The notes beneath the pieces are model-generated. The model ran no database searches, was not told the origin of the DNA, and worked only from the letters and a program-made list of their open reading frames with translations. Below, one piece after another: positions 699 through 16,666 of a DNA stretch of 39,140 nucleotides; positions within the stretch are counted from its first letter, which is position 1; the number at the start of each line of letters is the position of its first letter. Made by a program: the position numbers and the translations under genes. The stretch comes from a virus. The stretch spans positions 1-39,140 of the IMG/VR virus record IMGVR_UViG_3300020215_000045, one strand, 5' to 3'.

Positions 699-2819
699 TT
701 AATAAAACATCGCTTTTCTCTGGCACGATTTATAGGGCTTGTCGGCAACTGTAAAATCGGCTTCAGTCACAGCTGATCCAGAAATGATTTGAATCTCATC
801 AAGCCAGCCGTTAAAAGGAACGCTTGATAAGTCGTCATTGATCCCGATAAGGAGCGCGCCTGTTCCTGTAACGTTTGTCGAATCTGTGACTGTGCTCCCT
901 AGCTGTGCGCCGTCAATAAAGACTCTCAAGTCCGTTCCTGAGCGAGCGACAGCAACGTGATACCAGGTGTTCGTCGAAGGCCCCCATGCCTGATTAAATA
1001 CGAGCGCACCCTCAAGCAAAATCTGAAAATTTCCTGCGGAGCTTTTTATTAAGTTAATGTCTCCGCTTGCACGACTAATCATGTCCTGCCTGTTTGAAGT
1101 AGAATTAAATCTTACCCAATAATTAATATTGAAATTACTTGTTCCAAGATCCCAAACAGGAGAATCGGGAATCGAGGCGTAATCCCCTGTTCCGTCAAAA
1201 ACAAGCGATCCATTTCCAAATTTCGCTTGAGCGGTGTCAATTTGGGCATTTCCGTTTGCTGTAATCGAATGAGCGTGTTTGCTGCTATCTGTAATTGCTG
1301 TCGCTCCATCTGCGCCATCCCCATGAATCATGAGTTTTGTTTTGTAGTCAAAGCAGGTTTTGATCATGGGGGCATCTGAACCTGCGAAGTCTGAATAAGT
1401 CCTACCCGAACCTGAGTTGTATAGGTACCGGCGTTCCCATGGGTAAATGCGACGTTTAATAAAAAACGTTTCGTCTAACAGGCCGTCCCATAACGCGTTT
1501 CCATCCGCTTGCAATCCCACCGCCGCGCCCAAGTTAAAAGCGCTTGTGCCGTTAAATACGCCCGTTGCGTGACTCGCTGTCACTGGAGTTGCGGCATTAA
1601 TAGAAATTGCTATTTGATTAAGAATACTGTCATGCCAGGCAGTGTAGAAATACCAGGTGGCTGTAGATAAATTTGAGGTTGTGTCGAGCGATGTCGTATT
1701 CGCCGATCCGTCCGCAGAAACGGTGAAATTAAGTTTCTTCCCGGCTCCGGATTGTAACGCTAACGCCCACTCTTTTTGAGAGCCGCCGTGATCCCATTTT
1801 GAAGCAGCGATTGCGTAATCAGGAGCGCTTTCCATGTAAAGCCAGCCCGCGATTGTGAAATCAATGTCCCCAGTTGAGAGATCGGCGTTATCGGCACGCT
1901 CAAACCATTCTGAGTCCCCCGATTCAAAATCTCTCGCATTCCCAACTTTTCCCGCCGCGCTTGCGATGGTACCGCCAGTTTCCGTTAAATCATTTGTTCC
2001 GTGACTGTCCAGAGCATTTCCACTCGCTTCATCAAGAGGCCAGTAGGTTTTAAGATTCGCATCGTCTAATTCCGCCCCCGGGTCATCCGGCTTTCCGAAG
2101 TCCGTGTAGGCGAGGCCGTGGCCGTCGTTGTAGAGGTCTTCCCGCTCATTGGCGGTGAGTACCTTCTTCCAGAAACCGACTTCGTCGATGAGGCCGTCTA
2201 CCTCCTGGGCGTACGGATCCGCGCCGAGGTGGAAGGTGTCTCCGCCATCGATCCCTCCCGCCGAATGACTAGCCGTGTCTGTCGAGCGGTTGACGGATAT
2301 GCCTATCTGATTGCCGACGGAGTCGTGCCAGCAAACTACGTGGTACCACACACCAGTCGAGACGTTGCCGAACGTGTCGGCCTGCACGGAGGTGGCCGAG
2401 CCGTAGCCTGTAGCTCCGTAAACGTACCACTTGAAGCGATTTGTGCTGCCCTCAAGCTGAAGGTAATACTCCGCCGCTGGACCGCTGTCTTTGGTGAAGA
2501 CGGTCATGTCTCCACCAGCGAGGGCGTCGAACTTGATCCAGGCGGCGAGCGAAAAGTCGATGTCCCCGGTGGACAGGCTCGCGTTGTCGGCGCGGGTGAA
2601 ATAGTTGTTCTCCGAGAAGTCGCGGGCGTTGCTCACTTTCCCCGTCGCCGAGCCGACAGTACCGTTCTGCGTCAGCTCATTCGATCCGTGCACGTCAAGC
2701 GCATTACCCGAAGCTTCGTCGAGCTTCCAGTAAGAGATCAAATTATCAGTCAGGGCCGCAAATGCAGACCCCGACCACAGTATGAGAAAGAGCGGTATTA
2801 AAAACTTAATCCGGCGCAT
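699..2819 (-). CDS. Secreted-type protein with three LamG (concanavalin-like) domains; probable receptor-binding or surface protein
   Basis: A 706-residue protein with a Sec signal peptide (residues 1-21, ending SGSAFA) and three laminin-G-like jelly-roll domains. Domain 1 (about 24-240) and domain 2 (about 258-480) are clear duplicates: each has YW.LDEASGNALD, GNARDF or SNARDF, STGDIDF and TWY or WYH motifs. Domain 3 (about 490-700) is a more diverged copy (WYHVAVARSGTDLRVFIDG). LamG domains bind glycans or proteins, so a role in host attachment is likely. Base composition shifts inside the gene: domain 1 is visibly more GC-rich than domains 2 and 3, suggesting a recently acquired or swapped domain. 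A signal peptide is unexpected on a virion protein. Confidence 0.8.
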   Translation of the reverse strand: MRRIKFLIPLFLILWSGSAFAALTDNLISYWKLDEASGNALDVHGSNELTQNGTVGSATGKVSNARDFSENNYFTRADNASLSTGDIDFSLAAWIKFDALAGGDMTVFTKDSGPAAEYYLQLEGSTNRFKWYVYGATGYGSATSVQADTFGNVSTGVWYHVVCWHDSVGNQIGISVNRSTDTASHSAGGIDGGDTFHLGADPYAQEVDGLIDEVGFWKKVLTANEREDLYNDGHGLAYTDFGKPDDPGAELDDANLKTYWPLDEASGNALDSHGTNDLTETGGTIASAAGKVGNARDFESGDSEWFERADNADLSTGDIDFTIAGWLYMESAPDYAIAASKWDHGGSQKEWALALQSGAGKKLNFTVSADGSANTTSLDTTSNLSTATWYFYTAWHDSILNQIAISINAATPVTASHATGVFNGTSAFNLGAAVGLQADGNALWDGLLDETFFIKRRIYPWERRYLYNSGSGRTYSDFAGSDAPMIKTCFDYKTKLMIHGDGADGATAITDSSKHAHSITANGNAQIDTAQAKFGNGSLVFDGTGDYASIPDSPVWDLGTSNFNINYWVRFNSTSNRQDMISRASGDINLIKSSAGNFQILLEGALVFNQAWGPSTNTWYHVAVARSGTDLRVFIDGAQLGSTVTDSTNVTGTGALLIGINDDLSSVPFNGWLDEIQIISGSAVTEADFTVADKPYKSCQRKAMFY

Positions 2820-2827
2820 TCAGCCTC

Positions 2828-3202
2828 TTACCCTCTGAGTTTTGCGAAAAATTGATCGCGGGCTGCTCTGACGTTATCAACCGATCCATTGCCGCTAGTT
2901 TTCGAGTAACAGCTGTCAAGTTCAAGGAAAGCTTCTCTAGCTTTGGCGTTTGAAGTAAATCCGAAACGGCTTGTGATCTCGGCATAATTCGTATGGTCTT
3001 CTGGATTATCAGCACCCTCCCGCATTTGAATCATCACATCACGGAGATTTTTAAGTGCGGTGTCCGACTCTTCCATCATTTGAAGCGTGCGCCGGAGCTG
3101 TCTACCGTACTGGGTTTGATCGTTAAAATAGATATGCGAAAATGCAAATGCAGAGCTGGCGAAAACCGTTAATGCGATTACCGCGAACAAAAACTTCTTC
3201 AT
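2828..3202 (-). CDS. Small exported helical protein in the tail-fibre cluster
   Basis: A 124-residue protein with a textbook Sec signal peptide (residues 1-20, ending ASSAFA) and a mostly helical mature part. The mature part has a single cysteine (LDSCYSK). No family is recognised. It lies between the LamG protein and the fibre-like protein, with short gaps and an RBS (AAAGGAGAT) before ATG, so it is co-expressed with them. A fibre chaperone or surface accessory role is possible but unsupported. Confidence 0.65.
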   Translation of the reverse strand: MKKFLFAVIALTVFASSAFAFSHIYFNDQTQYGRQLRRTLQMMEESDTALKNLRDVMIQMREGADNPEDHTNYAEITSRFGFTSNAKAREAFLELDSCYSKTSGNGSVDNVRAARDQFFAKLRG

Positions 3203-3220
3203 TTTTAAATCTCCTTTGGG

Positions 3221-4714
3221 TTAGGGCAAACGAAATACAAAAGTTACGATTAAGCCTTTTGAGGGCGTGGTGTGAACAGCGTCACAATCGATCCTGTAAA
3301 CCTGGTTTGTCGCAACGTCGTCATTCCCGGTGTCAATAACCGCTGCGGCTGCAGCCGTCGATGAATCATCCTCCCCGGAATCAACGGTGAGATTGGTCGA
3401 AAGCACGTCCGCGACGGTTCCCGAACAGACGTTTCCAGTTGCAACCGTGGCGCACCGCGCAATATCAATATTGATGGTGTTTGTCGTGCCGGTCGTGACA
3501 ACCTGCGCGTGAATTTCAACGAGGTTCATTCCGTCAAGGGATGAGGGGATCGTGAAGTAGGCTTTTCCGTCGCCGGTTGTGGCGTCTTCGCCAGAATCAA
3601 AAACCGGGACAGAAACAACCTTCTCCCCTAAATTAGAACCTGCCAGAGCATCAGGGGAAACTGCGCGGGCAGTATCGGTTCCGGTGTCGACCTCTGAAGC
3701 AATCGCTACTTCAATACAGCCTGTGGCGGTTGTGGATGCAGCATCGCAGTCAAGAGTGCCGCTATTGGAGGTTAGGCTGGTACCGCCTAAAGCACCGATT
3801 TCTGTTTGAACATAGGCAGTCGTTGCAAGAGAAGTGTCGTTATCGTCTGCCGCTGGAGTTGTAGCGGTAGAAGCACCCATCACCCAGCCGGTGACGGTTA
3901 CGCTATCATCAAGTGTGGGGCTCGCCCATGTCCCGCCAAGTTCGCCGCCAGGAGATGTGCCGACAACAATCTCAGCAGAAAGGCTTCCGTTTGCTGTTCC
4001 AACAAGATAATCCGCATCCGTCGGAGCACCGCTACCTCCTTCTGAAGCGCAATCAATTTCTGTATTTGAAGCGTCGTAAGTGCAGAATTTTGTATCTGTT
4101 AAAGTTCCAAGGTCCGTACCTTCAACCGCACTTGCGCTATCTACTGTAATGTTATTAGGGACTTGTGCGTCTGTAACAGCTCCTTGAAAATCTTGAAGAT
4201 CTAAAACCGCTTCAAGTTCCGCCTCAACTCCAGTTGCATTTAATTCGTCAGCGCTTACGGAATCGGTGCTTAATGAAGCGGCGGTATGATTATGCGAATC
4301 ATCGGAAACAGAAAAATTCCCGCCTGAAGCGGATAAATCTCCTGTTACATAAGAATTATCAAAGGAAACGCGCACAAAGCCGGCTTCAACTTTATTGACC
4401 ATAACCCCATCTCCGGAAACGATGACTTTCTCCGCTGAAAGCGATCCATTCGCAGCAGCAACAACGTATTCCGCATCAGTCGGCGCACCCGATGCAGCTC
4501 CGGAATCATCCCCGCAGGCCCATACGCCCCCGCCCTGCGCTTTCATGACTTTCCCGGATTCGCAGGGAATGGTGATATCGCCCGAAACGTCTGTTCCGAT
4601 ATAATCCAGTTTCTTTGTAAAAGGATTAAATTTTTTCCTGTTTGCGGCCTCGACGTGGCTGCAAAGCAAAAAAATCAGAAGGAAGCTAAACCAGAATTTC
4701 AGACGGATAGTCAT
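3221..4714 (-). CDS. Tail-fibre-like protein with signal peptide
   Basis: A 497-residue Ser/Thr/Ala/Asp-rich protein. Residues 1-23 form a signal peptide (ending SHVEA). Next comes KKFNPFTKKLDYIG, an opening seen in environmental tail-fibre proteins. Internal repeats include APTDAEYVVAAANGSLSAE and APTDADYLVGTANGSLSAE, and there is a DTSLATTAYVQTEI segment typical of fibre shafts. The C-terminal part (about 360-497) is beta-rich and may be the receptor-binding tip. It overlaps the following 82-residue gene. The signal peptide is the odd feature. Confidence 0.75.
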   Translation of the reverse strand: MTIRLKFWFSFLLIFLLCSHVEAANRKKFNPFTKKLDYIGTDVSGDITIPCESGKVMKAQGGGVWACGDDSGAASGAPTDAEYVVAAANGSLSAEKVIVSGDGVMVNKVEAGFVRVSFDNSYVTGDLSASGGNFSVSDDSHNHTAASLSTDSVSADELNATGVEAELEAVLDLQDFQGAVTDAQVPNNITVDSASAVEGTDLGTLTDTKFCTYDASNTEIDCASEGGSGAPTDADYLVGTANGSLSAEIVVGTSPGGELGGTWASPTLDDSVTVTGWVMGASTATTPAADDNDTSLATTAYVQTEIGALGGTSLTSNSGTLDCDAASTTATGCIEVAIASEVDTGTDTARAVSPDALAGSNLGEKVVSVPVFDSGEDATTGDGKAYFTIPSSLDGMNLVEIHAQVVTTGTTNTINIDIARCATVATGNVCSGTVADVLSTNLTVDSGEDDSSTAAAAAVIDTGNDDVATNQVYRIDCDAVHTTPSKGLIVTFVFRLP

Positions 4715-4934
4715 AAGTTAAATTAACCCTGTCAGTGAAATTGCTTGAATAATTGGACGATCCGGCCGCATAGCGAAACAAAGTCACTCCCCCCGAAGAT
4801 GATTCTTTCTGGATATACCAGGCACCATCGGGCCGCTCAAACCCGTAATATTTCGTTGCGCTTGAATCATCCACATCGCAAGGGGCGAAAGCGTTTGTCG
4901 GGTCAGATATGTAAGTTCTTTTTAGATTCACCAT
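4686..4934 (-). CDS. Small conserved phage structural-type protein
   Basis: An 82-residue protein with aromatic-rich motifs (KYYGFERPDGAWYIQKE, LFRYAAGSSNYSSN, NLTYDYPSE) that I associate with small conserved proteins of phage tail-fibre regions; the function is not known. Its ATG overlaps the stop of the coiled-coil gene (TAATG), and its 3' end overlaps the start of the fibre-like gene by 29 bases, supporting translational coupling. Confidence 0.65.
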   Translation of the reverse strand: MVNLKRTYISDPTNAFAPCDVDDSSATKYYGFERPDGAWYIQKESSSGGVTLFRYAAGSSNYSSNFTDRVNLTYDYPSEILV

Positions 4935-5362
4935 TAAAGACCCCCGACCGCCCTTTTGATTTCAGACCATTTTTCGAGCTTTTGGTTAACGATGTGCTCG
5001 ATCTTCTGGAGATCCTTTGCCCGCGTTTCGAGAGCGGCCAGTTTGGAGTTGATGTCTTTCATCGTTGCCGCAATCTCGCTCTTTTCGGTCAAGATGCGCG
5101 CGGATTCGTCGCGGTTCACGGCCTGCAAAGCTTTTGCGTCTTTTTCCCGCTGATTTAGTTCTTTTTCCTGCGCGTCCAATTCCGCTTTTCTTTTGTTCAG
5201 CTGCGCGGACAATGTTTCTGCTTCTTTTACGAAGCGGTCCCGTTCCACTTCCTTCTTTTTTACCCATTCTTCAATCTTGGCCTTTTCAGCAGTCATCTTC
5301 TCGACCTGCTTTTTGAGTGATTCCGCTTCCGCTTTCAATTTTGTTTCGGGTAATTCGATCAT
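4934..5362 (-). CDS. Coiled-coil protein
   Basis: A 142-residue protein that is almost entirely a charged coiled coil (heptads from about residue 8 to 130, rich in E, K and A). It is the first gene after a terminator hairpin (5387-5420) and has a strong RBS (AAAGGAG, 5374-5380), so it probably opens the fibre-gene transcription unit. The role is unknown; a fibre-assembly or trimerisation helper is a guess from position. Confidence 0.65.
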   Translation of the reverse strand: MIELPETKLKAEAESLKKQVEKMTAEKAKIEEWVKKKEVERDRFVKEAETLSAQLNKRKAELDAQEKELNQREKDAKALQAVNRDESARILTEKSEIAATMKDINSKLAALETRAKDLQKIEHIVNQKLEKWSEIKRAVGGL

Positions 5363-5386
5363 TTCAATTTCTCCTTTAAAGTGAAA

Positions 5387-5420
5387 AAGCCCACTCCCGG
5401 TTTATTCCGAGAATGGGCTT
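5387..5420 (-). terminator. Rho-independent terminator (minus strand)
   Basis: On the minus strand the arms AAGCCCA and TGGGCTT close a hairpin with an inner CGG/CCG pairing, followed by TTTTTCAC. It lies between the stop of the 618-residue internal protein (5460) and the start of the coiled-coil gene (5362), so it separates the two units. Confidence 0.75.
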
Positions 5421-5459
5421 GGGTGTCTTAAAAAGACTGCGAAGCCGTAAAGCTAAATT

Positions 5460-7316
5460 TTATTTATCCGTTAAGAGTTGGAGCCCTCTTTTCCCTGCCG
5501 TTACACCTGCGGTGATGCGAGGCGCATTTTTATACTGTCTGGCAGAGTCTTGCAGTCCATATAATTTTCTTGCCATAAGAGCTTGCACTGGATCCCAGGT
5601 AAGAATTTTTCTTCCCACAGCAAGCGGTGGTGAACCGGCCAAAACCATATCGCCAAGACCTATCAAATTATTTCTTTCTGAAATCCCCATTCGCTTACCA
5701 ATAACATCTGCCGCCTCCGAAAGGTCGCCGATGCGGCGATTGGTGCCCGCAATATCAACTTCGGGAATAGCTTCTTCAACACCTTGTTTGAGGCCGCGCG
5801 CGTAAGCTCTTCGCGTCATTCTTTCAGGAGTTTGAGCGTCCGAGTCGTAAGAGACGGAATATTGCCCTTTCTTGAATTGTTGAGCGTCTTTGACGCTGAT
5901 CGGCCGGAATTGCTCGCCTATTTGTTTTCTTTCGAGCTTGCTTTGACCAAGAACGTCCTCAGCTCTTCCCGATATTGTTGTGTCATTAATAATGGAAGCA
6001 GATTTTAAGCGCTTCTGCGGCTCGGGGCCTAAAATATCTTCTTTTCTGACCTGGTTTTCCCTTTTAGGGTAAGCGACGGTTGCTTGTTTATTTTTCTTTG
6101 GAATGATCACGGTATCTTCCGGGCTTTCTAAGTGCCGTTTTCCAATAGGAATATCTCCTCGCTTTGTCTTAGAAAAATTTATTCCTGACGCCGGATCAAA
6201 GTCACCCTGAACCACTTCCTTTTCAGGCTGCAAACCTTCAAGAATTGGTTTTTTTGATCGTCCCGCTAAAGGAACATTCTTATATGCTGGAGATACGGAT
6301 TTAGAGCTGGAACCTTTTTTAATAACGAATTGGCGCTGCTCTGGCGCTTCGTACTTTTTAATGATTTTAGGGGCTGTTATTTTGGAGTCTGAACCTTGCC
6401 TCAAAAGAAATTGACCGCTTTCAACATCGTCGTAAACCGGCTCTTTCAGGCCGTGGCGCTCAATAATGGCCTTTTTAACATCAGCGACTTTATTCAAAAC
6501 ATCGTCTGTCGCAGCATTGCTACGATATTTTGTCGCAACTTCGTCCATATACTCAATTGCTTTTTCGGGAGAAATCTTCCGGTTTTTATACTGCTCCATA
6601 ACGTCGTCTAGGTATTGATTTAGCTCTTGGCCGCGTTTCATTACATTTTCAAGGATTCGGCCTTTGTCTCCACGGACAAGCCCTTCTTTAAGAAGGGCCT
6701 CCGAGATTTCGCCGCCTCTTTCCGCGAATTCACCAGTCGGTCTTATCATCCGGCGAACCATGCCCACACCCGCCTTACGAGCAGCGGGCGCTACACGCGT
6801 CAACGCCTTCTGCCCGGCTTTTGCTATGCCGCCAGAAGTTGCCGACTCTAATCCTAGCCCGAGAAGTTTTCCGGTTACGGACCTCGGTTGCGGCGCAACA
6901 GGAAATCCGAATTCGCTTTCCGGCGTTTTTACCGGCATCCTTAAAATCTCTTCACCTGCTCCGGCTGGACCGCGCAACATAAATTGTTTGCCAATTTCAG
7001 GTAGTTTTTTTGCGCTCTCCATGCCCTTTTCGATGAATTCGCCGGGATACCCCGCTACAATCTTAGAAATTGGCTCCCTACCGACGTCTGTGAGGCCTTG
7101 AGTGACGCCATGCATAGCAGAGGCAGCAAGCCCTGGAATATCATCTTTAACGGGCAAAAATGGGACTTTTTCGGCTTTGGAGGGCGCTTGTTTGCTAGCT
7201 TTGGTCTTCCTGGGCGTTGAAAAGAGATCGTCGAGGGGTGGGCGTCCATCCATCGGCGCAGATTGTGGGCGCGTGACGGTAAAAAGATCATCTAAAGCTG
7301 GTCTTTCAGTCGCCAT
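5460..7316 (-). CDS. Large internal virion (ejection-type) protein
   Basis: A 618-residue hydrophilic, Lys/Arg-rich protein. The N-terminus repeats RPALDDLF and RPPLDDLF. A Gly/Ala-rich region at about 60-190 could contact membrane or form amphipathic helices, followed by a helical part (about 200-290) and a linker with two related segments (QFLLRQGSDSK and QFVIKKGSSSK). Large low-complexity proteins encoded after the tail hub in podoviruses are usually ejected internal proteins; that is inferred from size, composition and position. No lytic transglycosylase motif was seen. Confidence 0.6.
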   Translation of the reverse strand: MATERPALDDLFTVTRPQSAPMDGRPPLDDLFSTPRKTKASKQAPSKAEKVPFLPVKDDIPGLAASAMHGVTQGLTDVGREPISKIVAGYPGEFIEKGMESAKKLPEIGKQFMLRGPAGAGEEILRMPVKTPESEFGFPVAPQPRSVTGKLLGLGLESATSGGIAKAGQKALTRVAPAARKAGVGMVRRMIRPTGEFAERGGEISEALLKEGLVRGDKGRILENVMKRGQELNQYLDDVMEQYKNRKISPEKAIEYMDEVATKYRSNAATDDVLNKVADVKKAIIERHGLKEPVYDDVESGQFLLRQGSDSKITAPKIIKKYEAPEQRQFVIKKGSSSKSVSPAYKNVPLAGRSKKPILEGLQPEKEVVQGDFDPASGINFSKTKRGDIPIGKRHLESPEDTVIIPKKNKQATVAYPKRENQVRKEDILGPEPQKRLKSASIINDTTISGRAEDVLGQSKLERKQIGEQFRPISVKDAQQFKKGQYSVSYDSDAQTPERMTRRAYARGLKQGVEEAIPEVDIAGTNRRIGDLSEAADVIGKRMGISERNNLIGLGDMVLAGSPPLAVGRKILTWDPVQALMARKLYGLQDSARQYKNAPRITAGVTAGKRGLQLLTDK

Positions 7317-7324
7317 TTTTAAGC

Positions 7325-7353
7325 TTTACCTTTCCGGGTTTCTGCCGTAATAT
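7325..7353 (+). promoter_or_regulatory. Putative sigma70 promoter of the reversed two-gene unit
   Basis: TTTACC (7325-7330), a 17-base spacer, and TAATAT (7348-7353) on the plus strand, just upstream of the ATG at 7362. The predicted start of transcription falls at about 7360, so the mRNA would be nearly leaderless. It gives the plus-strand genes independent expression inside a minus-strand late block. Confidence 0.5.
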
Positions 7354-7361
7354 TTAAGGCC

Positions 7362-7526
7362 ATGACAACACTGTTTCGGATCATTGCTTTGCTCGCCTTC
7401 TTTGTGAGCGCTATCAATTTCGCGTCGCTCCAAGCTTTAACCCACAAAAAAAGTCCATCAAGTTCATATCAGGTCGAGTCAAAAAAAGAACCTTATATAA
7501 ACGACCTTTTCCAGCCAAAAAATTGA
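7362..7526 (+). CDS. Small exported protein, first gene of a reversed moron
   Basis: A 54-residue protein on the opposite strand to its neighbours. The first 25 residues form a signal peptide or anchor (ALLAFFVSAINFASLQA), followed by a short polar tail rich in S, K and N. The tail ends in a TTGA overlap with the next gene. The promoter-like sequence directly upstream, the reversed orientation and the AT-rich codons fit a moron-type insertion. It may be one half of a spanin-like or exclusion pair; no family is recognised. Confidence 0.6.
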   Translation: MTTLFRIIALLAFFVSAINFASLQALTHKKSPSSSYQVESKKEPYINDLFQPKN

Positions 7527-7696
7527 CACTAACCGCAATCAACGTTTTGATATTATTTTTGGTTTGGAGAGTGTACTCCAAAATCAAAGACGTTTTATTT
7601 GAAATCCAAGCCATTGAATCAAACATCAGGGCTCTTGACGATAATATTTACTACTTAAAGAAAACAAAATTAAAGAATACCGCGTTGCAACAATAA
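7523..7696 (+). CDS. Small membrane protein with coiled coil, second gene of the moron
   Basis: A 57-residue protein starting with TTG overlapping the previous stop. It has one transmembrane segment at about 4-17 (TAINVLILFLVWRV) followed by a coiled-coil-like helix (KIKDVLFEIQAIESNIRALDDNIYYLKK). The last 27 bases overlap the 3' end of the opposite-strand 296-residue gene. Anchor plus coiled coil resembles an inner-membrane spanin or a superinfection-exclusion protein; both are only structural analogies. Confidence 0.55.
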   Translation: MTLTAINVLILFLVWRVYSKIKDVLFEIQAIESNIRALDDNIYYLKKTKLKNTALQQ

Positions 7697-8560
7697 ATTT
7701 TTTATTTGATCGTCCGAAGCGCCACGCCGCCTGGCTTCGCCATAATCGCTTTCATATCCTTCAGGAACCCACTCTGGCACTTCTCCACCGCCTTCTTGCT
7801 GAAACCAAGTTTGAGGATCTTCGTTGTAATTCTGCTTATAACTTCCAAACATTCCTGCCTCTTGAGCATTTAGCGCATTCACCATTTTTTTGATAACAGG
7901 CTTTAATCTCGGGGCGCTCAAAATGTCATCGTTGGCTGCGGATTCCTGAAGAAGCTTCATTTCATAGTCAGAGATTGCGCCTTTTGTTTTTGCTGTTTGT
8001 AAAAGAGCAGCATCCGTTCCTATCATTTTAATTTTTTGCCAATCCTCAAGCATGGGGTCGTTAGGTTGGAACCTCTTCTTGAAAGCTACAGATATTTGTC
8101 CGCCAATTCCCTGCGGAACCTTTGGCAATGCTTTTTCCGCATCTGCGATTTGCTGTCTTCTGACTTTATTCGCTTCAACAGTTTCATAGATTGCTGCGGT
8201 GGCCTTATCCTTCGCGGTCCTCTGCCCGGGCGTTAAAATACCCTGGCTTTGTTTAGCCTTGTAATTATCAATCTTTGCTTGTTCTAAAGGGCTGACGTAC
8301 GAAGGGTCTTTTTCGTATTTGCTTCCAACACGAATAAATCCGGTCGGCGCGGAAAACTGTTCCGAGCGCGTCAATTGAAACTGATTACCCTTTGGCGTGA
8401 CTTCAAAGCCGCGCTCTGTGAGGTCTGCGCGCTTGACAGCATCCTCTAAGGCAAACTGCCGCATCTGTGAGTCCTCGACCATTCTTTTCCTTTGTGAGTC
8501 CTGGCCTTCCCTGTAACCCCGCAACCCTGAAATAATTCCTTCGCTAACCGACTTAGCCAT
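7670..8560 (-). CDS. Probable internal virion protein
   Basis: A 296-residue, mainly helical hydrophilic protein. Residues 1-45 look like a docking helix (SVSEGIISGLRGYREG), a central coiled region spans about 95-150, and the C-terminus (PEWVPEGYESDYGEARRRGASDDQI) resembles the flexible ends of podoviral internal proteins. Its position between the tail genes and the 618-residue protein supports an ejection-complex role. No enzymatic motif is visible. Confidence 0.5.
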   Translation of the reverse strand: MAKSVSEGIISGLRGYREGQDSQRKRMVEDSQMRQFALEDAVKRADLTERGFEVTPKGNQFQLTRSEQFSAPTGFIRVGSKYEKDPSYVSPLEQAKIDNYKAKQSQGILTPGQRTAKDKATAAIYETVEANKVRRQQIADAEKALPKVPQGIGGQISVAFKKRFQPNDPMLEDWQKIKMIGTDAALLQTAKTKGAISDYEMKLLQESAANDDILSAPRLKPVIKKMVNALNAQEAGMFGSYKQNYNEDPQTWFQQEGGGEVPEWVPEGYESDYGEARRRGASDDQIKNLLLQRGIL

Positions 8561-8562
8561 TT

Positions 8563-9342
8563 TTACCGTCCTCCTAAATTGTATCTAAGCCTAGGGCTTT
8601 TCAGTACCCGTGAATATTCGTCAGTCATCCCGCCAGAAGGCTTATAAAGCGCATCCGATGGCCTCACGTTTTCAGGTAATCCGCCAGCGCCCATCGTTGG
8701 GGAGCGGAGCATCCCATATGTCCCAAGCCCAGACTCAATAAATGAACCCATCGGATCTTCATATTGGTTAAAACGCTCAACTTGCGAGCCTTGAGCATAA
8801 CGGCGATCTGAGTTTTCCGCGCCGTATTCTCTTAAATCAAAATCGGCGGCTGCATTTTGCTGTCCGAAGTTAAAGGTATTAAAATCTTGAAGACGCGCAG
8901 TATTGACATCCCGTTCTTCGTTTTGACGCTCAAGATCTTCTATGTCGACATCAGTAACATATTTATCTTTCGCAGTCTGGTAATCTTCCTGCGCGCGATT
9001 ATAGAGTGCGTCAACAGCTTTCAGGTTCCTGGAAAGGCCCATCCCGGAAAGTCTGTCGTTGATGTCCGCTTTTGAGCGCTCCATGTCCTTTTTGCGGCCA
9101 AGGTCGTAGGACTCCAAAAGCGCAGCGCGACGTTCCGGGGCATATCCCACACCCTCACCCTGCGAGCGAGCCATTAAAATATTTTTGATTTGCTCTTCAA
9201 CGGGTCTAAGGAAATTAGGGCTTTCAGGACGCCTTCCGCTATATTCTTTAAATTCGTAAGCAGCCGGCCTGCTTTTATTCCTACTGCTTGCGCTTTTGGC
9301 GGCAAGAGCGCCCGCGCCACCCGCTAAAAGTAAAGGCAACAT
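8563..9342 (-). CDS. Probable internal virion protein with Ala/Gly-rich N-terminus
   Basis: A 259-residue protein beginning with a hydrophobic LPLLLAGGAGALAAK segment, then a helical region (about 50-160) and a Gly/Pro-rich tail. The short hydrophobic Ala/Gly-rich start is typical of podoviral ejection proteins that enter the host envelope. The start ATG overlaps the stop of the 45-residue gene. Role inferred from composition and neighbours. Confidence 0.5.
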   Translation of the reverse strand: MLPLLLAGGAGALAAKSASSRNKSRPAAYEFKEYSGRRPESPNFLRPVEEQIKNILMARSQGEGVGYAPERRAALLESYDLGRKKDMERSKADINDRLSGMGLSRNLKAVDALYNRAQEDYQTAKDKYVTDVDIEDLERQNEERDVNTARLQDFNTFNFGQQNAAADFDLREYGAENSDRRYAQGSQVERFNQYEDPMGSFIESGLGTYGMLRSPTMGAGGLPENVRPSDALYKPSGGMTDEYSRVLKSPRLRYNLGGR

Positions 9343-9479
9343 TATGGACCCTCCAGGGCTTCGATTCGTTCTTCTAAGTTTTCCAGTTTGTCGAGAATTT
9401 CATTGATTAAGATTGCCAGAGCTTCGAGATTCTGGTCGTGATAATCCTGATTGTTCCAATTTGAAAGACGATCAACCAT
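9342..9479 (-). CDS. Tiny coiled-coil protein
   Basis: A 45-residue acidic protein with a clear heptad pattern (LAILINEILDKLENLEERIEAL). It is overlapped at both ends by neighbouring genes (ATG inside the upstream stop, stop inside the downstream ATG), which supports translation. Function unknown. Confidence 0.55.
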   Translation of the reverse strand: MVDRLSNWNNQDYHDQNLEALAILINEILDKLENLEERIEALEGP

Positions 9480-9862
9480 TAGCGTACAATTCCCAGCTCT
9501 TTAGCTTCCTGGTACTCAGCCGGCGTCAATTTAAGAAGCAACCTTTTCCGGTCTTCCTTCGCCTGTTTCGCGGCTTGCGCGGCTGCTTTCTTAGCAGTAT
9601 CCACTTCGATTTTTTTTAAAATCCCCCGCTTCCAGTAGTTCCTATCAAGTCGCTCTGCCGGATCGCTTGGAATGTCTGATTGATTTATCCTGATTATGGG
9701 TAAGCCTGCGAGGCCGTTTTCATTTAATGTCTCTTCAAGCGTTTGCGCCGCCGCATCGTTGTGATGAATGATCACAATCGAGCCATCCGCCTTTTCGACG
9801 ATATACTCCGAAGCAAAGGCGTTTAGAGAAAGACAAAGAAATAAAATTAAGAATTTAATCAT
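9479..9862 (-). CDS. Exported protein with Ala/Lys-rich helix
   Basis: The ATG at 9862 overlaps the stop of the fibre-like gene (ATGA), giving 127 residues. Residues 1-17 are a Sec signal peptide (ending LNAFA). The mature part starts with a small beta-type unit (EYIVEKADGSIVIIHHND) and then a charged helix rich in AAKQAKEDRK. A longer frame opens upstream, but the coupled ATG puts the signal peptide exactly at the N-terminus. No family recognised; one of six signal-peptide proteins in this block. Confidence 0.65.
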   Translation of the reverse strand: MIKFLILFLCLSLNAFASEYIVEKADGSIVIIHHNDAAAQTLEETLNENGLAGLPIIRINQSDIPSDPAERLDRNYWKRGILKKIEVDTAKKAAAQAAKQAKEDRKRLLLKLTPAEYQEAKELGIVR

Positions 9863-11238
9863 CGCCTTGTGTCTCCTACTCCAATGCAAACCGTGGGATT
9901 TCCGTCCACGGCCGCGTCTGATACGTTTTTGATATTGAATCTTGCAACGCCGGCGGTCAGGGACTGGATAGAATCCGCAGCTCCGTTTGTGGTGGACCCT
10001 TGCTGCGAATGCGTGCAATCCGCATAATAAGTCGCATTCACGAAATCAGAGTCCCAGGATATGGAGTAATCGCCGGCTGCATTTTCCAGGATAGATGCAA
10101 CGTTGTAGCTGTTTAAAATCGTACCGCTTCCCTGCCCATCGAAATGGACCCACCCGCCTACAATCTCGCGCTCCGAAATCGCATGGACCGTCACGTTATC
10201 GCGTGAGGTAAAAAGATTCGTCGCATCGGTATTTACGGAGCCAATTAAGCGGTAGTTTGTCAGACCTGTCGGCGTCGTCGCGTTTGTCGAGTACGTAACT
10301 GAGTAGGACGTTACGTCGTCTTGATCGGCCACGCCGTACACATAATATTTCAGCGGCCCTCCAGTCACGGTGCCTGTATCAAGCCCTGAAAGCCCTGACG
10401 AAGGCGTATCCGTTCCGGTCGTAACCGTGATGTCGGACGAGACAAAACGGTAACGGCCATTAATGTAAAGTGCTCCTGGCGTAACTTTAAAAGTCGTGTG
10501 GCTGTCCCAACTTACAAAGGCACCCTGGGCGTGTCCAACCGGCGTTCTTCCGGCCGGAGAGAAGCGACGCACGGGCGGCCCGACTTTCAACATATCGTCA
10601 AGAGTAGATCCGGAAGAGGTTGAAAAAGTGCCTGCAAAAGTTCCGGTCGCGCATGATGTAGTCCTTAGATCCTGCACCGCGACAACCTGAGTACCGTCAG
10701 TAGAAACACGGGCGATTGTCGCGGATCCTGCAAGGTCAGAAGGTCGAGCTGCGCCTATCGTAACTTCCTGATAATCGAAGCTCCCGGAAGTGAGAATATA
10801 ATAGTAGGTCCATTTTGAAGCGGTCCATGTTTTAGCCGTCGTGGTCGTCTTTTCGACGCGGTACCCGTCCGGATACGATACACCCGCAGGAATCGAGCCT
10901 AAAAGCGTTCCTGAGGTGGTTGTCGTAAGCATTCCGGATGTTTTATCCGGGCAGCCCGCACCTTCATTTGTCCGGATGCGCGGATTTGCATCGTCCGCCA
11001 TATTTTCCTCACCAATCGTGTCGGCTTTGATCTGGCCGGAGGACTGCGCTGAACCCGCAAAGACGCCGCGTATATTATTGACACCGTTTGTGAGCGCGAG
11101 CCGATCGGCATTCAATTTCGTGGTCATGTCGGTTTGACCGGCCACGTAATTCGAATCAAGCGACACGATATCGGCGAATGCCTGACCGCCAATGACCATC
11201 CATGACAAGTAAAGACTAAATGCCAACGATTTGCGCAC
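9859..11238 (-). CDS. Fibre-like structural protein with signal peptide
   Basis: GTG at 11238 is chosen because GGAGG lies 7 bases upstream and the protein then opens with a signal peptide (residues 1-22, ending GGQAFA); total 459 residues. The mature protein is Ser/Thr/Gly-rich and beta-type, with motifs such as TKLNADRLALTNGVNNI, GALYINGRYRF and a Cys-containing C-terminus (TVCIGVGDTRR). Composition and position directly after the tail hub suggest a tail fibre or appendage. The first 23 bases overlap the hub gene. Confidence 0.65.
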   Translation of the reverse strand: MRKSLAFSLYLSWMVIGGQAFADIVSLDSNYVAGQTDMTTKLNADRLALTNGVNNIRGVFAGSAQSSGQIKADTIGEENMADDANPRIRTNEGAGCPDKTSGMLTTTTSGTLLGSIPAGVSYPDGYRVEKTTTTAKTWTASKWTYYYILTSGSFDYQEVTIGAARPSDLAGSATIARVSTDGTQVVAVQDLRTTSCATGTFAGTFSTSSGSTLDDMLKVGPPVRRFSPAGRTPVGHAQGAFVSWDSHTTFKVTPGALYINGRYRFVSSDITVTTGTDTPSSGLSGLDTGTVTGGPLKYYVYGVADQDDVTSYSVTYSTNATTPTGLTNYRLIGSVNTDATNLFTSRDNVTVHAISEREIVGGWVHFDGQGSGTILNSYNVASILENAAGDYSISWDSDFVNATYYADCTHSQQGSTTNGAADSIQSLTAGVARFNIKNVSDAAVDGNPTVCIGVGDTRR

Positions 11239-12772
11239 GTTTTTTCCTCCGGATTGGCCGGGCGTCATAGTTCAGCGCCCGGAACGCCAGCTTTTTCTTT
11301 AAACTGTAATTGTGGATTTTTAATTGAATCGCATCCGCTTGAAAATCTGCAAGATGAGGATCATCGTTCAGGCTTTCAAAATCAACCGGATCGGAGTCAA
11401 GGTCCAACGCTTCGATGGAATCATTATTCCCTTCAAGAAATACTTCGAAGTCCTCAAAAACTTCGTTTTCGAACCCCTTCAGGATCTCGATTAGAGCGGA
11501 GTGCGTCCCCGTCGGAATTTTCTCTAAAAAAATCTTTTCATAGCGCTTGATCCAGTTCCCGTCATAAATAGTTTTACCGATCGTTTCGTCCTCGTAGATT
11601 GCAGATAAAAGAATCGGGTAAATCAGGTTTCCGTTATCCGACAACTCGTCCGAATAAAACGTGTTGTAGTCAGCGACGCGGAAAATGCGGCCGCCATCAG
11701 AATGTTTCCGTCCGAAAATGTGCTCACCTTTAAACCGTTTCGTATCGAGCGCAGCCGAGCACTCAAAACCGTAGGGGTGCGGACCATAAATATTCGGGGA
11801 TTCCGTTTCTTTGTTGATATTGATTGCGTCAAAGTGAAACGTCGTGCTGTTTTCTGCGTCCTGATCGAGCGCGAAAGAAAGTTTATAAATGTGGTCGACG
11901 TATTCGGCGCAGGCATTTGATATTTTTTCCGGATTGATTCGCTTTAAATAGGGTTCAATGTCATAAGAAAGCAGCCGGCACGTCCTGCCATTAAATGCAA
12001 ATAGGCCGATTCCCGTATCCGGAGAAAACCCCAAAAACCAGAGCTCTTCCCCTACCTGCCGGACCGTGCGAGGTGCTGCAAGGCCGACGACGGAAGGCGC
12101 TTTTTCCGGCCGCCAGCTTGTCGCGGAGCCATTAATGTAATAGACCCAAATTGAACTTCCCATTAAAACGATTAAACGACCGTTCAAAATCCAGAGCTTT
12201 TCAGGTTCATCGCCCTTTGTCGGAAAAATCGTTGCAACGTTTAAAGAATTCCATTCAAGCGGCACACCCTGAATAGTTGCGAGGTCGTCCGTCCAGACGA
12301 TTTCACCGTCTTTTGTAATCGCAAAGCAGCGATTCGTCTCTTTGGCGGCAATAATATCCTTCAAAAGAATGTCATTCACTTTCCGGATTTTGGATATGCC
12401 GTCATATTCAAGCAATCCGTCATCAGGGTGAGCAATGTATTTGTTGTAGTTAATCTGAACATCAAAGCGGATCTTATTCGGAGTTAGGCCGGAAACGAGC
12501 GTTTCGAATTCATTTTTCCCGGCTGCGCGTTTAAGTATTTTGTCGTCGCAGGCAGTCAATACTTCCGCCGAATCTTTGTTGTAGTGCGGCATGATTGCTG
12601 TCGGAGAATTTGTGCCGAGCGTTGCGCCGTGATATTTAACGGAGCCTTTAATCTGCTCAAACTGCTCATCGTGTCCCATATCGACATTCTGCATGAATGC
12701 CCACTGGTCACGCTCTGCCAGGTCGTAAGCTTTCAGCCTCAAATTTACGCCGTTCCGGGGCCGGATTCTCAC
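11216..12772 (-). CDS. Tail hub / stabilisation-type protein
   Basis: A 518-residue beta-rich protein opening with MRIRPRNGVNLRLKAYDLAERDQW, then a series of blade-like repeats (EKLWILNGRLIVLMGSSIWVY; GEELWFLGF). This pattern fits podoviral tail-nozzle or gp10-type hub proteins that fold as propeller-like structures. It is coupled to the connector gene by a 4-base overlap. Family assignment is from architecture and gene order, not from a search. Confidence 0.6.
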   Translation of the reverse strand: MRIRPRNGVNLRLKAYDLAERDQWAFMQNVDMGHDEQFEQIKGSVKYHGATLGTNSPTAIMPHYNKDSAEVLTACDDKILKRAAGKNEFETLVSGLTPNKIRFDVQINYNKYIAHPDDGLLEYDGISKIRKVNDILLKDIIAAKETNRCFAITKDGEIVWTDDLATIQGVPLEWNSLNVATIFPTKGDEPEKLWILNGRLIVLMGSSIWVYYINGSATSWRPEKAPSVVGLAAPRTVRQVGEELWFLGFSPDTGIGLFAFNGRTCRLLSYDIEPYLKRINPEKISNACAEYVDHIYKLSFALDQDAENSTTFHFDAININKETESPNIYGPHPYGFECSAALDTKRFKGEHIFGRKHSDGGRIFRVADYNTFYSDELSDNGNLIYPILLSAIYEDETIGKTIYDGNWIKRYEKIFLEKIPTGTHSALIEILKGFENEVFEDFEVFLEGNNDSIEALDLDSDPVDFESLNDDPHLADFQADAIQLKIHNYSLKKKLAFRALNYDARPIRRKKRAQIVGI

Positions 12773-13938
12773 GCGAAATCCTCATCATGGCTGTAATAGT
12801 ATTGATCGCCAAAACCGTGCGTTGTGTCCGGGACCGGCACAGTTGTTTCGGCGCTGGAATCATTCGCGTCATCGATAATCGTCTTTAATCCTTCCGTAAT
12901 TTCGTTTGCGAGCTTTTCCCCGATCTTGCGCTCTGCCCACTCTAAAAGATCCGCGCGCGTCATTTTTTCGAGAAGTGTGATAAATTCACTTTTAAACAAA
13001 AGCGCATCGGTATCGAGCCTGAGCTGCGGGTGTCTTTTGTAAAACGAGTATGAGAGCGTTTCTGAGGCGGACGGAATCGGCCAGACCTTAATCGCAACGC
13101 GCTCAATTCTAAACTCAGCCGGCGAAAGAGTCGCAACGGTTAAATCTGCAGCATTATTTGTGACCGTGACCCTTCCGCCGGTGAAATCGCTTTTTGTGGC
13201 GCTGATTACGGTCGTAAATGATTTTGAGCCTGTCTGGACCGTCGTCCCATTCAGCTCTAAATTCTCAGAATCAACCTGGCCGCTAACAATGCCGGTGATA
13301 TTCACATGGATTCCGATGTCGCCCATCGCATAAGATGCAGTTGAGGCCGTAACGCCACGGTATTTTTCTTCCAGCTCAATCTTTGTCGAAGAGTGGTATT
13401 TGGCAATCTTGTATGTGACGGTATCCGAACCGACTTTAATGCGAAGTCCGACACTGTTCAGGCTGAAGACACTGGTTGATGCTATAACGACTTTTGATCC
13501 GGCCTTAACGTTCAAAGTACCGGTTGTGACATTTGCGAGCGAAGATGAGGCTTTGATGACGGAGGCTGCTGTCAGTTGCAGATCAAACTGCCTCAGCTCC
13601 TCATAGGTCCAGATGCGGGGGTTTCCGGTGTCCGCCTGCCCATGAGTCGTAAGTCTTTTAAATTCGCTCGGGGACTTATAACGCAAAAAGCGCGGATTTG
13701 TTGATGGGCCGACAAGGGTGTCTCTAATGATCGCGTCGCAGTATTTGTCCAGCGCATAAACGTCTGTACCTGCGGTCATCGCGAGCGTTGAATCGTCTTT
13801 CCTGTATTCCGCTTTGATTTTAGGCCAGAGCGTTTGAATATTGTCGTTTGCGTATGCGCGCGCGAGGTCCAGATGCTCCGCGTCAAAAGGGAGCTCTGCG
13901 CGCTGCAATGCCCGTTTAAAAATAAGCCCGAAATTCAT
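12769..13938 (-). CDS. Head-tail connector / adaptor protein
   Basis: A 389-residue protein. The N-terminal helices (RALQRAELPFDAEHLDLARAY) and the DVYALDKYCDAIIRD segment match the general look of podoviral head-to-tail adaptors. A beta-rich insertion (about 125-275, Val/Thr-rich, immunoglobulin-like) interrupts the helical core, and the C-terminus is helical again. It starts inside the stop of the O-antigen ligase-type gene (ATGA) and ends overlapping the hub gene. Confidence 0.55.
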   Translation of the reverse strand: MNFGLIFKRALQRAELPFDAEHLDLARAYANDNIQTLWPKIKAEYRKDDSTLAMTAGTDVYALDKYCDAIIRDTLVGPSTNPRFLRYKSPSEFKRLTTHGQADTGNPRIWTYEELRQFDLQLTAASVIKASSSLANVTTGTLNVKAGSKVVIASTSVFSLNSVGLRIKVGSDTVTYKIAKYHSSTKIELEEKYRGVTASTASYAMGDIGIHVNITGIVSGQVDSENLELNGTTVQTGSKSFTTVISATKSDFTGGRVTVTNNAADLTVATLSPAEFRIERVAIKVWPIPSASETLSYSFYKRHPQLRLDTDALLFKSEFITLLEKMTRADLLEWAERKIGEKLANEITEGLKTIIDDANDSSAETTVPVPDTTHGFGDQYYYSHDEDFA

Positions 13939-15104
13939 GCGGCCCCCTCTTTCAGATCATGGATACGCGCCATAAAGACAGCGATTATAAAAATACATAT
14001 GACTGCAAGCCTTGCCAGGTGGAACGGAAACTGAATCGCGCTTATAACGACAACCGAAAAAACGCCTGAAAACATAACTTGGGCTAACCTGTCTTTGCGA
14101 AAGAGCAGGAAATCTTTGAATAGGCCGGCTATGAAAACTCCACAAAATACGATGAATGCAAGGCCGCACTCGTAAAATAATTGAATGTATTCGTTATGCG
14201 CCCATATCCAGGTTTGCGGAACATCATCCGGCTTTGGTTGCACCATAAGACTTAGCTTTGCGAACCCTCCAAGCCCTGCCCCAAACCACGGATCTCCCTT
14301 TAACGTGAGCGAAAGAGTCGCCAGCCATACGCGGAATCTTTCGAAGAACTGGCCTTCAGGCATATCGAATTTAAATATGTACCAACCCGCTGCAATCGCA
14401 AGAGCCGCTGACATTATGAAAAATACGGTTTTTCTAATTCTAAAAAAAGTAATCAATCCCAGCGATGCCGCGAAAGCAAATGCGGAAACGGAGGACTTCG
14501 AAATAATCAGGAGCGGAATCGCCAGAATGACTAAAAAGGGATTCAGCATATAAAGGAATGGAGCTATTAAGACTGCCATTACTCCTAAATGAACCTTCAG
14601 CTTCATAAGGCCGACAAGACTATCCCAAAGCCCGGTCCGTCCGGCGTGGATATCGCTATAAAGAGGGTCGATGCCGTGATATTGAAAATAACACCAGAGC
14701 AAGTTCAGAGCAATAACCGCAAGGAAAAAAAGCCCTGCCGTTTTCAGATAGCGGAGATTGAAATATTCAAAAACGGTTTTTAGAAATAGAATGCCTGCGA
14801 AAATATTTAGAATAGAGCGCCGGGCTTCAAGGCCATAGCCTTTAAAAATCGAAATAAAGAGAATGTAGATTAAAAGCGCTGCAAGAACCGGGGATTTAAA
14901 GGAGCGCTCGGCTTTCAGGGTCATAGAAAGCGCGAAAATCGCGATAACCCCGTACCTAAAAAAAAGCTCCTGCGCCATGTAGCCGAAATTAATTCCTTCT
15001 TCTGCGATCACAGGGCCCTTAATCGGCACATAAAAAAATGTGCAGACCGATATGAATATCAGAAGTGCGAGATTGAAAATTTTTGATTTTGTTGACTCGT
15101 TCAT
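13935..15104 (-). CDS. O-antigen ligase/polymerase-family membrane protein embedded in the virion operon
   Basis: A 389-residue polytopic membrane protein with about ten hydrophobic segments. The family signature (Wzy_C/O-antigen ligase type) is seen near the C-terminus: WFGAGLGGF (about 273-281) and WAHNEYIQLFYECG (301-314) in the large external loop. Enzymes of this family join or polymerise surface polysaccharide units, so the protein probably alters the host surface, for example to block reinfection. ATG at 15104 is preferred because AAAAGG lies 6 bases upstream; an in-frame ATG at 15152 would run through a terminator-like hairpin. The stop overlaps the connector start (ATGA). Confidence 0.82.
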   Translation of the reverse strand: MNESTKSKIFNLALLIFISVCTFFYVPIKGPVIAEEGINFGYMAQELFFRYGVIAIFALSMTLKAERSFKSPVLAALLIYILFISIFKGYGLEARRSILNIFAGILFLKTVFEYFNLRYLKTAGLFFLAVIALNLLWCYFQYHGIDPLYSDIHAGRTGLWDSLVGLMKLKVHLGVMAVLIAPFLYMLNPFLVILAIPLLIISKSSVSAFAFAASLGLITFFRIRKTVFFIMSAALAIAAGWYIFKFDMPEGQFFERFRVWLATLSLTLKGDPWFGAGLGGFAKLSLMVQPKPDDVPQTWIWAHNEYIQLFYECGLAFIVFCGVFIAGLFKDFLLFRKDRLAQVMFSGVFSVVVISAIQFPFHLARLAVICIFIIAVFMARIHDLKEGAA

Positions 15105-15122
15105 GTGAACCTTTTGGAGAAA

Positions 15123-15147
15123 GGGGGCCGGGAATCCCCCAGCCCCC
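15123..15147 (-). terminator. GC-rich hairpin before the ligase gene, possible weak terminator
   Basis: On the minus strand GGGGGC and GCCCCC close a hairpin with an inner GGG/CCC stem, followed by TTTCTCC. It lies just after the stop of the decoration-like gene. The T tract is short, so it may only reduce read-through into the ligase and tail genes. Confidence 0.45.
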
Positions 15148-15155
15148 TCCATCCG

Positions 15156-15674
15156 TTAAACCACTACGACAAAAGCGTCGATAGTTTGGTTTGTTGCTGC
15201 TGAGGTTTCCAAAGCGAAAGCAATAGGCTTATCGTTGGAAGAAACAGAAGCCACGTCATAAGAAGCGCGGTTCACAAGCACGCCGTCATTGGCTGCGACA
15301 AAAAGTCTATCGCCGCTCGACGTCCCGCCAAATACGCGAACCTTGCCCTTACCGCGAACCAAAACAAGCCCATAATCGCCAGTCGCAATTGTGGACTGAG
15401 CAATGCCGGCGACAATCGCGCCCTGGTCGATGGTGGTCGCGACACGAACCTGAACGGATGCGTCGTTATCATCTTCCGAGGAAGCGAAGTCGTAAACAAG
15501 GACGGTTCCTTGAGAGACAACCTTCGTTTCGCTTGCCGATACTCTTACCTGCGTCCAGCACTCATCGCCTGCGTCCAACTTTTGAGACTGGATGCAGTTC
15601 AGAGCGAAGGCGTCAGAGGCGCTTAAAAGAACAAGCGCCAGAAAAAAACCCAAAACCCATCTGCGCTTATCCAT
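15156..15674 (-). CDS. Capsid decoration-like protein with signal peptide
   Basis: A 172-residue protein coupled to the capsid gene (TAATG). Residues 1-24 are a clear Sec signal peptide (ending SASDAFA). The mature part is beta-rich: VSQGTVLVYDF, AIVAGIAQSTIATGDYGLVLVRGKGKV and GDRLFVAANDG follow the pattern of the small beta-barrel decoration proteins encoded next to many capsid genes. Two cysteines (NCIQSQ, DECWTQ) may form a disulphide. A decoration protein with an export signal is unusual, and the role could instead be at the host envelope. Confidence 0.62.
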   Translation of the reverse strand: MDKRRWVLGFFLALVLLSASDAFALNCIQSQKLDAGDECWTQVRVSASETKVVSQGTVLVYDFASSEDDNDASVQVRVATTIDQGAIVAGIAQSTIATGDYGLVLVRGKGKVRVFGGTSSGDRLFVAANDGVLVNRASYDVASVSSNDKPIAFALETSAATNQTIDAFVVVV

Positions 15675-16666
15675 TAGAAGCCCCCTCCCGTATAAACACC
15701 GTTATAGCGGGGTGAATTGGTTGTGAGCTGACCGCCGAGCGTGATTTTAGCGGCTTCGCAATCCTGATCGTAAGCTTCAATGAAATCTCCCATTTTGAAG
15801 TTTTTAGACTTCAAAACTTTCATTTTCAGAAACTTCGGGTTCAGAAAATAGAAGTGACCCGCGAGCACGTTGTCGCCAAACGTCAATTTCAGATCGACCA
15901 TGAAAGTGACATGAGGAAATCCGGCGTTCGCCTTTTTGCCCTGCTCAACAAAGCGTTCATTCGCTTGAAGCGAAATCTGGTGCGCTTCGAAGATTGAGCG
16001 GGTCATAAGACCGAACGTAGGCCGCTCGTTTCCAAAAGAGCACAGGTTGTAAAGACTCGTCATTGCGATCCGGCCCGCATTGGAAGTGTTCCAGGCGGTT
16101 GCGGATGCGATGGAAGTCGTTACGGCCTGATTCTGCGCTTTGGTGTACGTTACGCGATTAACGCCAGTGCCCTGAATGGTGGAGTCGACATCATCAGGCA
16201 CCACATCCTGAAGGCCGAGCCAGCCAAATTGAGTACCGTTGTTATCGAGCCCGCAAAGATAGGCGTCAAATGCGTTGAACATCGACATTTTTGCCTGTTC
16301 AATGCGGGATTCCAGAAGACTTACAGCCTGCGCGTCTCCTGCGTTCATCGCAAGCTCGGTTCCGTCCATGAAAATCGAGCCATAGAAAAACGCCGGGGTA
16401 TACGCAAACTTATCGATCCCCTGCTGTTCGTTCACATTGAGAACGGTACCTTTCCGATAACCGCCGACCGCTCCGGATTCACCAACGATGGCCGATTCAT
16501 GAAATTCGGTGCCACCGCCGACAACTTCTTTAAAGTTGCCGGCCTTTTTGATTTCCTCGAGGAGCGGAATGCGTTCGGAAATGCCGTCAGCAATGTTTTT
16601 CGAAATCTGCGGGCGCGTTACAGCGTAAAGCGCTCTCAGATCACTTGTTGCTGCTTCGTATGACAT
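15674..16666 (-). CDS. Major capsid protein (HK97-fold type)
   Basis: A 330-residue protein downstream of the scaffold. Motifs AGNFKEVVGGGTEFHESAIV, a helical spine (SLLESRIEQAKMSMFNAFDAYL) and the ending SPRYNGVYTGGGF match capsid proteins found next to P22/T7-like portals in environmental phages. RBS GGAG lies 7 bases before the ATG. It forms the shell together with the scaffold and portal. Identity is from gene order and pattern. Confidence 0.8.
   Translation of the reverse strand: MSYEAATSDLRALYAVTRPQISKNIADGISERIPLLEEIKKAGNFKEVVGGGTEFHESAIVGESGAVGGYRKGTVLNVNEQQGIDKFAYTPAFFYGSIFMDGTELAMNAGDAQAVSLLESRIEQAKMSMFNAFDAYLCGLDNNGTQFGWLGLQDVVPDDVDSTIQGTGVNRVTYTKAQNQAVTTSIASATAWNTSNAGRIAMTSLYNLCSFGNERPTFGLMTRSIFEAHQISLQANERFVEQGKKANAGFPHVTFMVDLKLTFGDNVLAGHFYFLNPKFLKMKVLKSKNFKMGDFIEAYDQDCEAAKITLGGQLTTNSPRYNGVYTGGGF

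Follow-up and report, generated by a model that had tools for sequence, protein, structure and literature searches.

Predicted Sec signal peptides on the cement-like and fibre-like proteins of a tailed phage

Organization of the late block

The window analysed here is a whole virus record of 39,140 bases (IMG/VR record IMGVR_UViG_3300020215_000045). It has a 127-base direct terminal repeat, and we found in it neither a tyrosine integrase nor a tRNA. The late genes lie on the minus strand and are described from high to low coordinates. The terminase large subunit (21301-22611; phrog_5653, 2e-29; phrog_2, 6e-29) is followed by a portal-like protein (18619-20700), assigned by position only, and a scaffold-like protein (16679-17710), assigned by position and composition; these two are 52% and 47% identical, respectively, to their counterparts in L001, a viral contig of 7.4 kb that is the one close relative of the window. 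The major capsid protein (15674-16666; phrog_9953, 9.4e-36) is 84% identical in L001. Directly after it lies a cement/decoration-like protein of 172 aa (15156-15674), and then an O-antigen ligase/polymerase-like membrane protein (13935-15152; PF04932 Wzy_C, 1.6e-7, at the cut-off), which is inserted between the cement gene and the adaptor gene and is absent from this place in L001. The Wzy_C protein hints at a host with O-antigen, which is an inference. Next come an SU10-type adaptor (12769-13938; PF24175, 3.5e-8) and a nozzle/head-closure-like protein (11216-12772; phrog_3287, 1.1e-4; phrog_578, 0.044).

The remainder of the block encodes fibre 1 (9859-11238, 459 aa), whose C-terminal part matches tail fibre PHROG 11355 (2e-5), and a small partner of 127 aa (small1, 9479-9862), which follows fibre 1 with a 4-base overlap. 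Three internal/ejection-like proteins (5460-7316, 7670-8560 and 8563-9342), assigned by position and composition only and lacking cysteine, precede a coiled-coil protein and an 82-aa protein (4686-4934). Relatives of the latter precede fibres with the motif NPFTGKLD (NPFT fibres, see below) in the viral contigs L025, L039 and L125 (phmmer, 1.7e-7 to 1.2e-5). Fibre 2 (3221-4714, 497 aa; weak tail-fibre PHROG match, 0.0011), a helical small partner of 124 aa (small2, 2828-3202), a protein of 706 aa with three Laminin_G_3/ConA-like domains (LamG protein, 699-2819; PF13385, 5.9e-45) and two small membrane-active-looking proteins complete the block. The presence of terminase, portal-like, major head, SU10 adaptor and nozzle-like proteins, with no tape measure or sheath found, corresponds to a tailed phage of podovirus/SU10-like build.

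Six late proteins start with predicted Sec signals

The earlier note claimed that six proteins of this block, among them a decoration-like protein next to the capsid and two fibre-like proteins, carry Sec signal peptides, and this observation is confirmed. All six ORFs exist at the coordinates given above, and each starts with a basic n-region, a hydrophobic core and an AxA-type site, with predicted cleavage at residues 17-24. The signal codons and predicted mature starts are 2757-2819 and ALTDNLISYWKLDE for the LamG protein, 3143-3202 and FSHIYFNDQTQYG for small2, 4646-4714 and ANRKKFNPFTKKLDYIG for fibre 2, 9812-9862 and SEYIVEKADGS for small1, 11173-11238 and DIVSLDSNYVAG for fibre 1, and 15603-15674 and LNCIQSQ for the cement-like protein. 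As a small correction to the note, the best site of the latter is SDAFA|LNC, after residue 24. None of the sites carries a lipobox, and lipoprotein signals of the SPase II type were rejected.

Using a simple heuristic scorer for Sec/SPase I signals, the six proteins obtained scores of 3.5 to 5.0, whereas only 0.27% of random sequences of the window's composition reached 3.5. In a control with a 50-kb stretch of Escherichia coli K-12 and six textbook exported proteins, all exported proteins scored above 3.5 and no cytoplasmic protein did, but 3 of 12 inner-membrane proteins also passed, so that an N-terminal membrane anchor is the main false positive. With an automatic caller, 6 of 17 late-block ORFs were scored as signal bearing, compared with 17 of 1,141 in other viral contigs around signal-free NPFT fibres and LamG-free neighbourhoods (Fisher P = 3e-7) and 1 of 217 in the cultured relatives of the capsid (P = 4e-7). 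This caller misses fibre 1, because of a penalty on GTG starts, and counts the ORF at 401-682, which looks like an anchored lysis protein. The capsid, portal-like, scaffold-like, adaptor, nozzle-like, internal and terminase proteins scored nothing, and the 82-aa protein has no signal. The split is therefore between outer and core components.

We also asked whether the signals could be bypassed by alternative starts. In the LamG, small2, fibre 2, small1 and cement genes, no in-frame ATG, GTG or TTG is placed so as to make a signal-free form. The cement, small2 and fibre 1 genes have clear Shine-Dalgarno sequences, LamG and small1 have purine-rich upstream stretches, and fibre 2 has a weak ribosome site. 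Fibre 1 starts at the GTG at 11238 (GGAGG upstream) and has a longer alternative ATG start at 11268.

Conservation of the signal in the cement-like protein

In L001 the cement gene occupies the same place (L001:5790-6278) and encodes a protein with its own signal. The two proteins are 43% identical overall; the hydrophobic core has diverged, while the AFALNC site and two cysteines are kept. The L001 orthologue matches the C-terminal part of the Pfam profile PF09956 Phage_cement_2 at 1.5e-4 (22.5 bits, just under the curated cut-off of 24) and the PHROG head decoration family (phrog_122) at 0.005, whereas the window protein itself gave no Pfam match. The decoration-like assignment made in the earlier note is thus reasonable, although it rests on a sub-threshold match of the orthologue. 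A direct comparison with the post-capsid protein of Mx9 showed no detectable relation, and an AlphaFold model built on two sequences was unusable (pLDDT of 38). Capsid, cement and portal-alignment queries of viral contigs returned only L001, and a scan with the portal protein alone found nothing, suggesting that the lineage is rare. A capsid query of genome contigs found no prophage.

Signal-free and signal-bearing forms of the same families

The strongest evidence came from the search for signal-free forms, which were found for three of the six proteins (LamG, small2 and fibre 2). After predicted cleavage, the LamG protein would begin at ALTDNL, within the motif ALTDNLxx[YF]WxLD followed by a LamG domain. 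A DNA pattern for this motif found 14 viral contigs and none of about 85,000 prokaryote genomes, so that this is a viral family and a host-derived LamG gene was rejected. In 12 of these contigs (nine distinct sequences) the codon before ALTDNL is a start codon (11 ATG, and GTG in contig L139), while in the other two, L128 and L134, a signal ends exactly there. Since Met before Ala is normally removed by MetAP, start-codon initiation and SPase I cleavage would give the same N-terminus. The window's LamG protein is 51% identical to the signal-free copy of L139, its sister with 99/99 support, and the tree requires at least two gains or losses of the signal.

The companion gene shows a similar pattern. 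In L139 the gene before LamG is a signal-free relative of small2 (alignment Z of 8.8 against shuffles), so that a syntenic gene pair exists once without and once with signals. In L128 the upstream partner of LamG, which belongs to a different (HGKYFQ) family, likewise has a hydrophobic start, while its relatives in contigs L132 and L133 do not.

Fibre 2 would carry the motif NPFTGKLD[FY] at its mature N-terminus. This motif is widespread in viral contigs and is found at the start of the annotated tail fibre of Synechococcus phage S-H1. Of 115 copies without a called signal, 110 have their Met 4-5 positions before it (the motif lying 3-4 residues after Met). Nine viral records besides the window (L025, L039, L052, L065, L070, L089, L102, L112 and L118) have a hydrophobic, signal-like start in front of the motif, that of L039 being recognized by eye and not by the automatic call, and 4-9 residues separate the predicted cleavage from the motif in the eight scored records and in the window. 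For the remaining sequences, searches were less informative. No homologue was found for small1 or for the N-terminal part of fibre 1, tblastn of cement, small2, small1 and fibre 2 against cultured phages gave no useful match, and patterns for the N-termini of fibre 1 and small2 returned one chance hit and no hit, respectively, in viral contigs.

Cysteines and glycosylation sequons

Signal-bearing NPFT fibres hold 1.64 cysteines per 100 residues, compared with 0.19 in signal-free ones (P = 2e-6; P = 0.004 after merging relatives into 13 clusters). The window's fibre 2 has nine cysteines, eight of them in four close pairs (P = 0.013). In four other viral records (G007, G008, G009 and G010; GC 0.29-0.39), the signal-bearing proteins are enriched in N-x-S/T sequons (z of 20.7, 4.8, 3.1 and 6.5, respectively; 219 observed against 70 expected in G007), while the other proteins of the same viruses are not, or barely (z of at most 2.0). 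This is as expected if these proteins cross the membrane in hosts that N-glycosylate. We suspect archaeal hosts for these viruses, although searches for PCNA and MCM to support this were negative. In the window itself, cysteine is not richer in the six proteins than in the others (0.97 versus 1.26%) and sequons are not significantly enriched (z of 1.7), so that, apart from the cysteine pairs of fibre 2, this evidence comes from relatives.

Where might the signal-bearing proteins go?

The earlier note proposed either that these proteins are secreted or placed on the host envelope or that part of the particle is finished outside the cytoplasm, and our results support this interpretation in part. 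The sequences show Sec-type signals, their placement in front of standard viral proteins and their restriction to outer components. That the signals are genuine is well supported, and their cleavage has indirect support from the coincidence of the predicted mature N-termini with Met-started relatives, the conserved signal in a diverged relative and the cysteine and sequon signatures of signal-bearing relatives. Translocation, cleavage itself, folding in the periplasm and joining of the particle, as well as the presence of the cement-like protein on the capsid surface and of any of the six in the particle, are inferred.

In the explanation we favour, at about even confidence, the DNA-filled core would be assembled in the cytoplasm as usual, while the outer proteins would be sent to the periplasm, where they would fold and could form disulfides (and, in the archaeal-type hosts of relatives, probably also receive N-glycans). 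When the cell lyses, cores would meet the stored outer proteins and be decorated and fitted with fibres outside the cytoplasm. Late addition of cement proteins and tailspikes or fibres to finished particles is established in vitro for other phages (T4 Soc/Hoc and tail fibres, lambda gpD and P22 tailspike), so this last step is physically plausible, although assembly at lysis would dilute the outer parts unless they are abundant. The fibre motif, normally at the very N-terminus of fibres with differing bodies, stays conserved in the signal-bearing forms, as expected if it still binds the virion, and the cement-like protein has no other obvious role.

The chief alternative, less likely but possible, is that the signals are real and cleaved but the proteins no longer serve the virion, being released or coating the envelope of the infected cell, for example to block re-adsorption or to act as adhesins, together with the O-antigen ligase-like protein encoded among them. 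Indeed, Sec signals send proteins away from the place of assembly, a Wzy_C membrane protein that would change surface polysaccharide was inserted in the same block relative to L001, LamG domains bind glycans or proteins, and phage-encoded exported envelope proteins such as lambda Lom are known (PMC12309495). Nevertheless, the cement-like protein has no evident use on an envelope and stays with its signal next to the capsid gene in L001, the fibre motif is kept, and the phage would then seem to lack other fibres and another cement protein.

It is unlikely that the segments are uncleaved membrane anchors or hydrophobic pieces of the virion, for example in assembly at the inner membrane. Our scorer cannot fully separate signals from N-terminal anchors, and the heads of some phages assemble at the membrane, but AxA-type sites are present in all six proteins, predicted cleavage falls at the start of signal-free homologues for LamG, fibre 2 and small2, and the AFALNC site is conserved in L001 while the hydrophobic core has diverged. 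A gene-start or assembly artefact, or chance, is very unlikely and already largely refuted. The weak ribosome site of fibre 2 and the two possible starts of fibre 1 could suggest it, but five genes have no usable internal start, the independent contig L001 shows the same for the cement gene, the frequency of signals is far above background and the same two-state pattern occurs in unrelated viruses.

A broader and more tentative hypothesis is that several unrelated groups of tailed viruses split particle assembly between two compartments, with a core built in the cytoplasm and an outer layer of cement and fibres sent out by Sec, matured with disulfides or N-glycans, and added when the cell opens. 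In this view, the switch would be made simply by grafting a signal peptide exactly in front of a standard virion protein, and would have happened more than once. Textbook tailed phages build their particles in the cytoplasm. Export of the outer parts would change how assembly order, disulfide-stabilized and glycosylated fibres, and superinfection control are understood, and would explain why the fibre genes of some uncultivated viruses look like secreted host proteins. The ALTDNL and NPFTGKLD families offer a clean natural comparison in this respect.

Comparison with known systems

Virion proteins with Sec-type signals occur in filamentous phages (pIII and pVIII), in the spikes of archaeal pleolipoviruses and in some membrane-containing or budding archaeal viruses. 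The particles of filamentous phages and pleolipoviruses are made at or bud through the membrane, whereas the window encodes a tailed phage with terminase, portal-like and major head protein genes. We found no description of tailed-phage virion proteins with signal peptides in the open literature searched, which left out most subscription papers and all preprints. Phage_cement_2 (PHROG 122) proteins are likewise encoded directly after the major capsid gene, but the window's protein carries a Sec signal and a cysteine pair, conserved in L001, at the predicted mature N-terminus, and no cement protein with a signal is known to us. Most NPFTGKLD-type fibres start a few residues before the motif, while the window and nine other viral records have a signal-like segment in front; the signal-bearing fibres also hold more cysteine. 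LamG domains have been reported in tail proteins of Stenotrophomonas phages AXL3 and Delepquintavirus (PMC7504290), and the window's protein differs in having a signal precisely before ALTDNL. Lambda Lom is also encoded by a late-region gene and has a signal peptide, but it is a single outer-membrane barrel and not a fibre or cement family (PMC12309495). In the window, one further protein with the same kind of signal (GGNAFA) is encoded on the + strand at 30457-30705, outside the range covered by the earlier note.

Additional genes of the window and of related viruses

A seventh signal-bearing protein, of 82 aa, is encoded in the early region (30457-30705, + strand). It is Cys-rich after the site GGNAFA|LEV. 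The gene has no clear ribosome site. In the late block, the gene at 13935-15152 (- strand), between the cement gene and the adaptor, encodes an O-antigen ligase/polymerase-like membrane protein (Wzy_C). Since the related contig L001 has no such gene at this position, it looks like an inserted cargo gene, which could alter the host surface polysaccharide. At the end of the late block, two small hydrophobic proteins are encoded at 10-243 and 401-682 (- strand), probably a holin and an anchored coiled-coil (spanin- or holin-like) protein, while no endolysin was recognized by the families searched.

The 82-aa protein encoded at 4686-4934 (- strand) carries no signal and precedes the NPFT fiber. 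Its relatives precede such fibers in the viral contigs L025 (there with a signal), L039, and L125. Some viral contigs (L011, L022, L046, L056, and L099) hold two NPFTGKLD proteins, one of only about 58 aa (MAVRFNPFTGKLDFSPS) and one longer fiber, and the short one may be a minimal attachment piece or cap. Next to the ALTDNL LamG gene, we found a small family (Q..Y...HGKYFQ) in three viral contigs (L128, 10688-11008; L132, 10919-11212; and L133, the gene just before LamG), which showed a hydrophobic start only where the LamG gene has a signal. The signal-bearing fiber-block proteins of four viruses, G007 (L153-L154), G008 (L155), G009 (L157), and G010 (L159), were strongly enriched in N-glycosylation sequons (up to z 20.7), unlike the other proteins of the same viruses.
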